Shown here piece by piece: positions 35,506 to 39,359 of a stretch of 60,666 nucleotides of DNA (position 1 is its first letter; every line of letters starts with the position of its first letter). The stretch is from contig JAGXFM010000011.1 in NCBI GenBank assembly GCA_024637215.1, positions 1-60,666 of the forward strand. The letters are read 5' to 3'. The position numbers were made by a program, and so were the translations under genes. The notes beneath the pieces were generated by a model that had not been told where the DNA came from, did no database searches, and was given only the letters and a program-made list of their open reading frames with translations. Origin of the DNA: Sulfuricurvum sp. Lineage in GTDB: Bacteria > Campylobacterota > Campylobacteria > Campylobacterales > Sulfurimonadaceae.

Positions 35506-36192
35506 TTATGCCGGATAAGCCGCTTTAAGCGCTTCGTACAATCCATCCGGTGTCATGTCGGGATTCGCTTCCCATGCACTCTTCATAACGGCATTGTCTT
35601 CCAACCCGTTCCATATCTTAATATAGCTTCCCTCTTTGTATCCGTGATCTTGGCGGAATTGGTTGAGGATATTTTTACCGACATACAAACGGTAAAGCCC
35701 TGTCACATTAAGTGCTCCCAAATACGCCAATTCAAAAAATTCTTCAATCAATGCCCCAATCATCTCAGGAGATACCGGAATAAGTGAGAGGCGCATAACG
35801 TTTTCGATTTTTGTCATTAAAATATCATCATTTCCGAATTGGAGGGCTGTCTCACTCATAAGCTTTTGATACTCCGGCGTTTTAAACATTCGCTCTGCAA
35901 GTTCTTCGATACTCTCAGCTCCGTTATTGTAGGTAAACTCTAAGACCAAACTCATCACAAAATGCCATACGTCGACAATTTCGATTTGAAGATTTTCATA
36001 ATCGGTCTCTTGCGCGATACTTTTCCAATGCTTCCAACCGAACGAATCGATCATTTCAGCCGACTCCATCGTAATACAACGACGCCAATTGATCTTTTTA
36101 CCGTGTTTGGTAACCCCTTTTTCCCACGCTTTACCGTTTGTGGCATCGTTCAATTTTTGCTGAAGTTCTAACATACAGAGTAATTTATTCAT
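35506..36192 (-). CDS. dut: dimeric all-alpha dUTPase (Campylobacter type)
   Basis: Hydrolyses dUTP to dUMP, keeping uracil out of DNA. It belongs to the dimeric, all-helical MazG-like dUTPases typical of Campylobacter. The N-terminal helix LLCMLELQQKLNDATNGKAW, the RRCITMESAEMIDS metal-binding helix with its Glu residues, and NLQIEIVDVWHFVMSL with its E-x-x-D pattern are seen. At 228 residues it is full length. A TATAAT at 36227-36232 on the minus strand and an AAGGAA site precede the ATG. It complements the ung gene at 10 kb. Confidence 0.92.
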   Translation of the reverse strand: MNKLLCMLELQQKLNDATNGKAWEKGVTKHGKKINWRRCITMESAEMIDSFGWKHWKSIAQETDYENLQIEIVDVWHFVMSLVLEFTYNNGAESIEELAERMFKTPEYQKLMSETALQFGNDDILMTKIENVMRLSLIPVSPEMIGALIEEFFELAYLGALNVTGLYRLYVGKNILNQFRQDHGYKEGSYIKIWNGLEDNAVMKSAWEANPDMTPDGLYEALKAAYPA

Positions 36193-36248: not shown

Positions 36249-36425
36249 ATGCAAAAGATTATCTGTCAGAAATGTACCTATTATTTCGTTACATGGGAAG
36301 CTCATCAGCCTCACGGCTGTAAAGCGTACGGTTTTAAAGCAAAGATGATCCCCTCAATGGTCGTTCAGAGTTCCAGTGGCGCGCCGTGTAGTTACTTTAC
36401 CCCTAAAACTCCCGTTTCCAAGTAA
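36249..36425 (+). CDS. small Cys-rich conserved protein (58 residues)
   Basis: A 58-residue protein. CQKC lies at residues 6-9, followed by YYFVTWEAHQPHGCKAYGFK and a VVQSSSGAPCSYF end. The four cysteines (6, 9, 24, 47) suggest a small metal-binding ribbon. I know similar short proteins as conserved hypotheticals in this phylum; some carry a misleading 'uracil-DNA glycosylase' label, but no glycosylase motif is here. A TAATAT ends seven bases before the ATG and no ribosome site is seen. The end overlaps the convergent PNPOx-like gene by 23 bases. Confidence 0.7.
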   Translation: MQKIICQKCTYYFVTWEAHQPHGCKAYGFKAKMIPSMVVQSSSGAPCSYFTPKTPVSK

Positions 36426-36810
36426 TCTTTTTTCCGAAACCCAAGGTATTATCGGTCATTTTGACCTCATCGAGCCGTATTACCCACAATGTCGGATTCA
36501 TAATCCGTGCATACGGGAAAGCTCCGAAATAGAGTTCATACCCTTTTGTTTCCGCTTTAGCCATCACGCCACGAAACTGTATTCCTTGGATTTTCCCCAC
36601 CATTTTGGTCTCTAGTGCCACCGTTCCCGCTACGTTTGGATCACATGCAACATTACTCATATGTTCTGTCGTCTCCTCAGAAGCAACAATAAAAGAGATC
36701 CGCTCCGAATCATACGCATAAAACATCGAACAGCACCATAATCGCTCCCCCATCGTCGCAAGAGAGAGGAGATGATGCTCATCAATGAAGCGCTCTATTT
36801 TTTCAATCAT
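36403..36810 (-). CDS. pyridoxamine 5'-phosphate oxidase-like protein (YhbP-type)
   Basis: A 135-residue split-barrel protein of the PNPOx-like/UPF0306 (YhbP) group, expected to bind FMN or a related cofactor. Typical strands are HHLLSLATMGERLWCCSMFYAYD at the N-terminus and GTVALETKMVGKIQGIQFRG in the middle. The activity is unknown. Its start overlaps the stop of the PLP lyase gene by eight bases, so it is the third gene of the sulfoxide synthase-lyase operon. A link to thiohistidine chemistry is suggested only by position. Confidence 0.75.
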   Translation of the reverse strand: MIEKIERFIDEHHLLSLATMGERLWCCSMFYAYDSERISFIVASEETTEHMSNVACDPNVAGTVALETKMVGKIQGIQFRGVMAKAETKGYELYFGAFPYARIMNPTLWVIRLDEVKMTDNTLGFGKKITWKREF

Positions 36811-37963
36811 TTAAAGCCTTGTCTAACCGATCCAATGCATGACAAAGTACCGATGTAGGTACAGCAAAATTGAGCCGCATAAAACCACTCCCCTCTTTAC
36901 CGAAACTAAGTCCCGGACTGAGACCAAGCCCCGCTTTGCGAACAAAAAATTCCCGCAGTTCACGATCACCTAATCCTAGTGATTTACAATCAAGCCATGC
37001 TAAATAAGTTGCTTCTGGAGGACGAAATTTAATACGGGGATGTTCCTCGCACCACGTTTCGATTATTTTGATATTAGCGCTCAAATGTTCCACTAACTTC
37101 GTATGCCAGCTTTTTCCAGCGGTGTACGCCGCCTCGAACGCAACATGCGAAAGTACCGCTCCATCTCCGAAATGGACACGATGACGTTCTTTGTCGTACG
37201 CTTCTCTAAGTGTTTCGGAGGGGATACACACCGTTGAGATCGAAAATCCCGCCATATTAAATGTTTTTCCGGGACCTAATAACATAATCGTATTCTCTAA
37301 AAGCTCTTTAGAGAGTGCCGCGATTGGAAGATGATGAGGTTTAAAGACAATATCCGAATGAATTTCATCGCTAATAATACGGATATTATGTTCCAAACAC
37401 AATGTACCAAGAGCATTTAGTTCATCACGACTCCATACCCGTCCTATCGGATTATGAGGAGAGCACAGCAATAAAAGTTTGGTTTTCGAGGTTATTTGGG
37501 AGGCTAAAGCATTGATATCAAAACGGTATATTCCCTCATTATCTTGTTTTAGCGGATGAAGGATCAAATGACGATTATTATCGCGCACCATAGAATAAAA
37601 GGGGGGATAAACGGGATCCATTACGATAACCTCATCTCCTTCTTCACTTAAAGCACGAATCGCACACCCGATCGAAGCGACAACGGAGGGAGAGTAGCTG
37701 AGCCATTGACGTTGCATCGTAAAAGCATGTTGCTCCCTCATCCATTCTATCTGTGCTTCAAACGCACGCTCACTCATAATCTCATACCCGAGGATCGGAT
37801 GAAGCAACCGTTCCTGTACCGCATGAATAACACACTCAGGAGTCGCAATATCCATATCGGCGACCCACATCGGTTGTACGGCTTCGGTGCCGAAGAGTCT
37901 CTCTCTCAAGGTGTATTTCTCAGCGTTAGAGCCGCTACGCTCTATAAATCGAAATTCATCCAT
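36803..37963 (-). CDS. PLP-dependent C-S lyase (PatB/MalY family), OvoB candidate
   Basis: A fold type I aminotransferase-like enzyme of the PatB/MalY cystathionine beta-lyase group, about 386 residues. Seen are MWVADMDIATPECVI at the N-terminus, CSPHNPIGRVWSRDEL, and the PLP lysine in GPGKTFNMAGFS. The ATG at 37963 is chosen because MDEFRFIERSGSNAEKY is the family start; the open frame runs farther upstream inside the sulfoxide synthase gene. It overlaps that gene by eight bases. In ovothiol and ergothioneine synthesis a PLP lyase cleaves the sulfoxide, so OvoB function is inferred. Methionine metabolism remains an alternative. Confidence 0.82.
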   Translation of the reverse strand: MDEFRFIERSGSNAEKYTLRERLFGTEAVQPMWVADMDIATPECVIHAVQERLLHPILGYEIMSERAFEAQIEWMREQHAFTMQRQWLSYSPSVVASIGCAIRALSEEGDEVIVMDPVYPPFYSMVRDNNRHLILHPLKQDNEGIYRFDINALASQITSKTKLLLLCSPHNPIGRVWSRDELNALGTLCLEHNIRIISDEIHSDIVFKPHHLPIAALSKELLENTIMLLGPGKTFNMAGFSISTVCIPSETLREAYDKERHRVHFGDGAVLSHVAFEAAYTAGKSWHTKLVEHLSANIKIIETWCEEHPRIKFRPPEATYLAWLDCKSLGLGDRELREFFVRKAGLGLSPGLSFGKEGSGFMRLNFAVPTSVLCHALDRLDKALND

Positions 37964-39359
37964 ACCGTTTTTTCCATGCAGCGTACATCTGATCAATCCG
38001 AGTATACTTTTTTGCTTCATCATCTGTGTTTCCGATGACGTATCGAAATCCTGTATGTTGGATAAAATGACGGCGAAAGGCGTATCGTGATGTACGGATA
38101 ATTTCATTTCCTGTTGAAATCCACGATCCCCCCTTCATCAAATTGTGTTTTCCATCAAACGTAGGTTCTGAAAAATCGTCATACCACGGATGGGTTACAA
38201 ACCCCTCATACGCATCCATCTGCGTTTGTGTCCATTGCCATACATTTCCTACAACATCATAAAGTTCCCCGTGAGCAAACGTATCGACGGGAACGGAAGA
38301 GGCAAAATGGGCCAAGTTAAGGTTGGATTGTTGATCATCGAATATCTCCTCCGAAATTTCTCCCGCTTGCGCCATCACTTCCCATTCCGCTTCACTCGGT
38401 AGACGGTAGACTTCCCCCCCCTGAACACTTTTCCAACGGCAAAATGCTTCCGCTTCGAGAGCATTCACCTCTACCGGCCAATTGTAAGGGATCGGTATCT
38501 CTTGGGTTAAAGTACGATACGTAAAACTGCCATCGCCTTGCGGAATCCAAAATGGGGGACATAGTACATGGCGGATTTGAAGATAACGTAACCCCTCTTC
38601 ATCCCACCAACGCGGAGTTGTGTACCCCTCTGCCCTGACGAAATCCATAAATTCGCCATTGCTCACCAAATATTTGGAAGTTGAAAACGGCTCAACATTC
38701 ACAACAAGACGGCCGTATTCATTATCCCAGCCATAAAGACCCTGATCGTCGGCACCTTTCCCTAAACGCACCTCACCGCCGTGAAAATGGACCATACTGT
38801 TTTCAGGACTCTCCCCTACTATCGGACAAATCGGAAAATCCGTATGGGTTCGTATAAAGGCTAAAGGCATCTGACGATGGAGCACGCTTGAGGTTTCAAT
38901 ATGGATTCGCTCATGCTCAATTCCCATCCATATTGCCCAAAGCGGATTATCTTTAGTAATCGGCAACGTCATAGGCAGTGTAGCTATCATCTCATCCACC
39001 ATACAGCGGACTTTCTTACGATATTCCCGTACTTCGTCAATACTCGGCCATTGGAGCGTATCACTGCTAGCATCCCACGTCATCTCATCGACTCCGACCG
39101 CAAAAAGCTTTTCAAAATAGGGGTTAATCCCCTCTTTAAGTCCACCCGAAGCAATCAGCTTATTAATATAAAAAATTGCCGTATGGCCAAAATAGAAAAT
39201 CATCGGATGACGTGTCGGTTCGGATTGCAGGTAAAAAACGTCATCTGATTTTAAAAGTTCAAAAAGTGACTCAAAAATAGTATAACTCTGATGAAAATAG
39301 TTTTTTAACTCTTCGCGTTTAAGGGTGTAATCCGCTCCATCCAAACGTACTGACTTCAT
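37956..39359 (-). CDS. OvoA-type 5-histidylcysteine sulfoxide synthase, no methyltransferase domain
   Basis: A non-haem iron enzyme expected to join cysteine to the histidine imidazole with oxygen, giving 5-histidylcysteine sulfoxide, the first ovothiol intermediate. A DinB-like N-terminal domain supplies the iron histidines: His79 in YFGHTAIF, and His169 and His173 in EHERIH (numbered from the upstream TTG at 39419). The C-terminal FGE-like domain ends GGSWISTG, then RYAFRRHFIQHTGFRYV. FAVGVDEMTWD marks OvoA rather than EgtB. The C-terminal SAM methyltransferase of full OvoA is absent. The ATG at 39359 (MKSVRLDG) is preferred; the TTG at 39419 is possible. Confidence 0.85.
   Translation of the reverse strand: MKSVRLDGADYTLKREELKNYFHQSYTIFESLFELLKSDDVFYLQSEPTRHPMIFYFGHTAIFYINKLIASGGLKEGINPYFEKLFAVGVDEMTWDASSDTLQWPSIDEVREYRKKVRCMVDEMIATLPMTLPITKDNPLWAIWMGIEHERIHIETSSVLHRQMPLAFIRTHTDFPICPIVGESPENSMVHFHGGEVRLGKGADDQGLYGWDNEYGRLVVNVEPFSTSKYLVSNGEFMDFVRAEGYTTPRWWDEEGLRYLQIRHVLCPPFWIPQGDGSFTYRTLTQEIPIPYNWPVEVNALEAEAFCRWKSVQGGEVYRLPSEAEWEVMAQAGEISEEIFDDQQSNLNLAHFASSVPVDTFAHGELYDVVGNVWQWTQTQMDAYEGFVTHPWYDDFSEPTFDGKHNLMKGGSWISTGNEIIRTSRYAFRRHFIQHTGFRYVIGNTDDEAKKYTRIDQMYAAWKKRYG

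Follow-up and report, generated by a model that had tools for sequence, protein, structure and literature searches.

The C-terminal methyltransferase domain of OvoA, the 5-histidylcysteine sulfoxide synthase of ovothiol biosynthesis, is usual but not obligatory. The fused arrangement is represented by the OvoA of PDB entry 8khq (728 amino acids (aa), sulfoxide synthase/methyltransferase), and the stand-alone 5-thiohistidine N-methyltransferase, OvoM, by PDB entry 9bxl; in a third described system, a truncated OvoA is paired with a 5-thiohistidine N-acetyltransferase (5THNAT; excerpts of PMC12631010). The window analyzed here, the whole stretch of 60,666 nucleotides from Sulfuricurvum sp. (contig JAGXFM010000011.1 of GCA_024637215.1; G000:C77:1-60666 in our numbering), is part of a 1.82-Mb assembly (80 contigs, 84% complete). 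On its minus strand, it contains a set of three genes, for an OvoA with no methyltransferase domain, the C-S lyase OvoB and a YhbP/PNPOx-like protein. Together with an ovoM gene on another contig of the same assembly, ovoA and ovoB very probably make up a Sulfuricurvum route to ovothiol A in which the third step is split off.

The predicted stand-alone OvoA (positions 37956–39359, minus strand, 467 aa) matches TIGR04344 (ovoA_Nterm) with 624 bits, compared to a cut-off of 400, and contains the Pfam domains DinB_2 and FGE-sulfatase. The three iron histidines that the initial annotation had located in the motifs GHT and HERIH are indeed present, namely, His59 (GHT, residues 58–60), His149 and His153 (EHERIH, residues 148–153), and do not vary in any of the 115 OvoA sequences in the alignment (about 380 aa or longer); in EgtB and OvoA, such histidines bind the iron. 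A PDB search also identifies EgtB-IV (343 bits) and OvsA (77 bits), in line with a common superfamily, and the protein might on that ground be an EgtB-like or selenium synthase using another substrate. This is hardly credible, however, given that the scores against the EgtB (191 bits, cut-off 360) and SenA (175 bits, cut-off 420) models are far under their own cut-offs, whereas the OvoA score is above its own; an EgtB or SenA identity is rejected on these bit scores. The nearest solved structure is 8khq (504 bits), with which residues 15–445 align through the iron-histidine motifs. The difference is that 8khq has the methyltransferase domain, whereas the window protein stops near where that domain would start; a Pfam/NCBIfam profile search detects nothing past residue 441 and thus no fused methyltransferase, in agreement with the initial annotation.

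The ovoB gene (36803–37963, minus strand, 386 aa) encodes a pyridoxal phosphate (PLP)-dependent C-S lyase of the PatB family, with a match of 538 bits to TIGR04350 (cut-off 340); it shares with PatB/OvoB lyases both this match and the place beside ovoA, and the OvoA and OvoB identities proposed earlier are borne out. The best PDB match is 4dgt (337 bits), named putative PLP-dependent transferase, and none of the 60 PDB matches listed for the lyase is a chain named OvoB. The open reading frame (ORF) coordinates of all three genes are those of the initial annotation, and both overlaps of eight bases that it had reported are confirmed on them: the start of ovoB overlaps the stop of ovoA (37956–37963), and the YhbP-like gene overlaps ovoB (36803–36810). 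In the loci of the genus where both genes were seen whole, ovoB is directly 3' of ovoA. In one genome (G092, L162:574-2961), the two form a single ORF of 795 aa that is devoid of the first 46 residues of OvoB; this is a single fragmented assembly, and an assembly error is possible. In five genus genomes, ovoB is followed by a gene for a membrane protein of 424–429 aa (L163:644-1933, and alike in L171, L187, L188 and L191), which in the one case tested matches PF13194 (DUF4010).

The initial annotation had left a choice between an unmethylated product and methylation by an enzyme encoded elsewhere. A search of the genome for a separate methyltransferase resembling the C-terminal domain of OvoA identifies OvoM on contig C57 (G000:C57:3038-3799, 253 aa), with a score of 299.6 bits against TIGR04345 (cut-off 170; match at G000:C57:3050-3775, model positions 1–242 of 242), so that the second option stands and the first is unsupported in this genome. 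Its PDB matches include 9bxl, named 'OvoM' (363 bits), and the methyltransferase portion of 8khq (268 bits); it is 64% identical to 9bxl over 246 residues, and no protein-level difference between the two is seen. Over 246 residues, the 9bxl stretch itself coincides fully with the OvoM of a genus member (G094), and hence the stand-alone enzyme was known from Sulfuricurvum before this analysis. The dnaX gene on contig C57 shares 94% identity with its counterpart in a genus member, which makes contamination unlikely.

With OvoM in the same genome, the predicted product is ovothiol A. Judging by the known families, OvoA would convert histidine, cysteine and O2 into 5-histidylcysteine sulfoxide at its three-histidine iron site, OvoB would convert the sulfoxide into 5-thiohistidine, pyruvate and ammonia, and OvoM would use S-adenosylmethionine (SAM) for the N-methylation of 5-thiohistidine to ovothiol A. 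Apart from being split, this predicted route to ovothiol A is ordinary, and its methyltransferase has a precedent in the genus. The 5THNAT system shares an OvoA without the methyltransferase module (excerpts of PMC12631010), but here the methyltransferase is present in trans instead. Literature searches combining OvoM with ovothiol, Sulfuricurvum with ovothiol or thiohistidine with Campylobacterota, as well as a search for OvoATh2, yielded no report; a search for Sulfurimonas with ovothiol yielded a review (PMC9103826) in the excerpts of which Sulfurimonas occurs solely in the reference list.

Two observations weigh against an ovothiol A pathway as the function of this locus. First, ovoM is not linked to ovoA and ovoB in this genome. 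Second, among the 41 genomes of the genus (many of the genomes analyzed here are metagenome-assembled), OvoA is above the cut-off in 38, and the search for OvoM is positive in 20 (in one cut by a contig end) and negative in 21, including 12 genomes that are 97–100% complete; the methyl step is therefore not tied to ovoA/ovoB. For two of the 21, G110 (81% complete) and G102 (88%), the absence is uncertain because these genomes are incomplete and yield no dnaX match either. The dnaX flank, the usual place of ovoM, was inspected in 17 of the 21 and contains OvoM in none; in G114 and G057, dnaX is directly followed by the ORFs that in the window's genome lie beyond ovoM and its upstream neighbor. 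OvoA and OvoB are under purifying selection in the tested pairs of both groups, with ratios of nonsynonymous to synonymous substitution rates (dN/dS) of 0.08–0.15 in eight pairs lacking OvoM and 0.06–0.18 in five pairs possessing it. The simplest reading of the OvoM-negative genomes is that unmethylated 5-thiohistidine is the product: with OvoM not found in about half of the sister species, these should stop at the unmethylated thiol. The same could be held for the window's own genome, with OvoM idle or acting on another substrate, in view of the retention of OvoA/OvoB without OvoM in 21 of 41 genomes, the OvoA dN/dS of 0.08–0.15 in the eight pairs, and the reported co-encoding of a truncated OvoA with an N-acetyltransferase (excerpts of PMC12631010). 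This is unlikely, however, in view of the intact OvoM encoded here, which closely resembles the crystallized protein, and a methylated product remains the preferred prediction.

Phylogenetic analysis places the OvoM proteins of the genus in one clade (support 100/99) that branches within the family's fused methyltransferase domains. This clade adjoins the genus g7 (100/96 in the first tree, built from 74 of 103 rows, with the partial G132 and G032 left out and the fused rows of large genera thinned; 99/97 in the second tree, of 47 rows with remnants left out, which was used for the approximately unbiased (AU) tests on the methyltransferase). In the OvoA tree (89 of 116 rows, with short rows dropped and genera thinned; a quick tree without bootstrap), the Sulfuricurvum N-terminal domain is near g5 and g11 rather than g7. 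Given this mismatch, OvoM may have been acquired from elsewhere, perhaps from a g7-like donor, once the domain at the original place had decayed. The AU tests do not reject a common history of OvoM and OvoA: on the OvoA side (a quick tree of 48 of the 89 rows), a clade of g1 and g7 is not rejected (p-AU 0.236), and on the methyltransferase side, OvoM with g5 (0.116) or with g11 (0.118) is not rejected, whereas OvoM with g3 (0.005) and with g5 and g11 together (0.02) is rejected. Gene fission in place is an unlikely origin of OvoM because five genomes retain methyltransferase remnants that are still fused to OvoA, one of them (G116) has both the remnant and OvoM, and the neighbors of ovoM differ.

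The five genomes with such remnants (G090, G096, G098, G037 and G116) encode OvoA in open frames of 643–707 aa, with remnant scores of 101–122 bits. The remnants keep a recognizable SAM-binding stretch and are devoid of the N-terminal NIYETD..QYC.FQYG, the C-terminal SPYTW..EEYT..FW.GGY and the FVIRET segments. Their dN/dS of 0.18–0.28 (five comparisons), compared to 0.10–0.14 in the N-terminal domain (four computable), indicates that the constraint is weaker but not gone, and dead sequence is not supported; in a control pair with the intact domain (G010/G044), the values are 0.07 for the methyltransferase and 0.08 for the N-terminal domain. These ratios were obtained by simple counting, and the synonymous sites are in many cases close to saturation. 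At its original place, the methyltransferase domain appears to have been cut down to a remnant in part of the genus and to have disappeared from the remaining species.

Similar states are found beyond the genus. Six genomes of other genera (G017, G018, G040, G107, G142 and G109) have a remnant-bearing OvoA, which on the quick OvoA tree corresponds to five changes, four of them forced by starred branches, and in a 100% complete genome of another genus (G011), ovoB follows a stand-alone ovoA and no methyltransferase match is obtained; an apparent stand-alone OvoA in G009 runs to the contig end and was excluded from the counts. In the own family, 139 of 151 genomes have an OvoA above the cut-off (any match, 146) and 113 a methyltransferase above its cut-off; with OvoA this common, the initial annotation's view that such a locus would be notable in Campylobacterota is weakened. 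In a phylum sample of 298 Campylobacterota genomes, 67 with OvoA and 231 without, seven of the 67 have no methyltransferase above the cut-off (G014, G017, G037, G189, G274, G314 and G337), and in an eighth (G421), the match is above the cut-off but spans only positions 1–184 of 242. The best 80 OvoA loci of named genomes yield 79 OvoA ORFs, three with a remnant and seven without methyltransferase signal, all seven from Sulfuricurvum. Recurrent loss of the methyl step, in this genus and in others, is one of the testable new elements here.

In 15 of the 18 testable loci, the gene directly upstream of ovoM encodes an ADP-ribosylglycohydrolase-like protein (ARH, PF03747; in the window's genome L004:3824-4888, on C57); among the 20 ovoM loci, two (G084 and G132) are cut by contig ends and three (G104, G094 and G120) do not have ARH upstream. 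In G029, ARH and OvoM are fused in one ORF of 613 aa (L198:4377-6218). OvoM faces dnaX directly in 15 of the 20 loci. The ARH ortholog is present in 16 of the 41 genus genomes, all OvoM-bearing, and in none of the 21 OvoM-negative ones, with four OvoM genomes lacking it; the Fisher test gives p 5e-8, a value inflated by related genomes; with kinship taken into account, only four pairs remain independent, and the median p of the sign test is 0.25. The canonical motif of ADP-ribosylglycohydrolases is GGDTDT, and the alignment shows GGDNASR at this position in the OvoM-linked ARH. A second ARH, 25–28% identical to the OvoM-linked one, is encoded upstream of the YhbP-like gene in the ovo regions of four genomes of other genera with fused OvoA (G025, G007, G006 and G013; L255:11384-12286, L258:12723-13721, L261:3087-3989 and L256:12143-13057); among the best 80 named OvoA loci, it is found only in the record of G013 itself (L350). 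In G006, an ORF between ovoB and the ARH gene (L261:4338-5087) looks sirtuin-like by eye.

The literature search identified no report joining ADP-ribosylglycohydrolase with ovothiol, and neither the ARH-OvoM unit nor the recurrent loss of methylation was met in the literature searched; both are put forward as new and testable. A tentative hypothesis, which we consider possible rather than probable, combines these observations: the methyl group would be optional, with the methyltransferase lost in Sulfuricurvum and separately elsewhere under retained selection on OvoA/OvoB, and 5-thiohistidine or a derivative would be a working thiol; roughly half of the genus would have retained or reacquired methylation through a two-gene ARH-OvoM unit, present or absent mostly at one site beside dnaX, and ARH would be an undescribed partner tied to the methylated product alone, with a role such as the cleavage or formation of a glycosidic conjugate of ovothiol.

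The third gene of the set (36403–36810, minus strand, 135 aa) encodes a protein that resembles YhbP, with a score of 133 bits against NF002900, below the cut-off of 176. PNPOx_N is weakly detected in 25 of 26 aligned members, the window protein having an E-value of 0.013, which does not reach the Pfam cut-off. In its AlphaFold2 model (mean predicted local distance difference test score, pLDDT, 91.9), the protein has the split-barrel fold of the FMN-binding (PNPOx-like) class: 155 PDB chains are matched at E-values up to 0.001, with query TM-scores of 0.71–0.82 among the 20 best, the best being heme-binding split barrels (MSMEG_6519, HugZ and ChuZ), and flavin/F420 proteins lower. The initial annotation had suggested that this protein reduces or oxidizes the thiol. 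A dedicated thiohistidine redox enzyme in a three-gene functional unit would fit the overlap with ovoB, the heme/flavin fold, the purifying selection on the gene and its proximity to OvoA (about 8 kb or less in 21 of the 23 own-family genomes of the phylum sample having both). However, relatives of the gene occur equally often in that sample whether OvoA is absent (143 of the 231 genomes) or present (40 of the 67). None of the 17 genomes of other families having both carries the two on one contig at a distance of 8 kb or less, a search of the 26 OvoA genomes of families f4, f7 and f11 gives no relative, and the own-family genomes G003, G019 and G031 possess one but lack OvoA. A dedicated role is thus unsupported and appears very unlikely, and the survey, while upholding linkage within the family, rejects the three-gene unit as a general claim. 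The gene probably represents local synteny in the own family rather than an ovothiol enzyme, and it could have been recruited to ovothiol within that family. The literature search yielded nothing on YhbP. The next gene downstream is that for dUTPase (35506–36192, minus strand; PF08761, 102.5 bits; NF049964, 246 bits, under the cut-off of 300), and in many loci of the genus, the YhbP-like gene is followed by a dUTPase-sized ORF (sequence inspected in some loci). On the plus strand, an ORF of 58 aa (36249–36425) overlaps the 3' end of the YhbP-like gene in antisense orientation; a Pfam/NCBIfam search at E 0.01 gives no match for it.

To our knowledge, the role of the methyl group of ovothiol is an open question. 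With OvoA/OvoB kept and about half of the species with and half without the methyl step, the genus represents a natural experiment, in which thiol pools and stress survival compared between close relatives could show what methylation does. Besides 5THNAT, OvoA is the only known enzyme recognizing a 5-thiohistidine derivative (excerpts of PMC12631010); the OvoM-associated ARH is a further candidate for such an enzyme.

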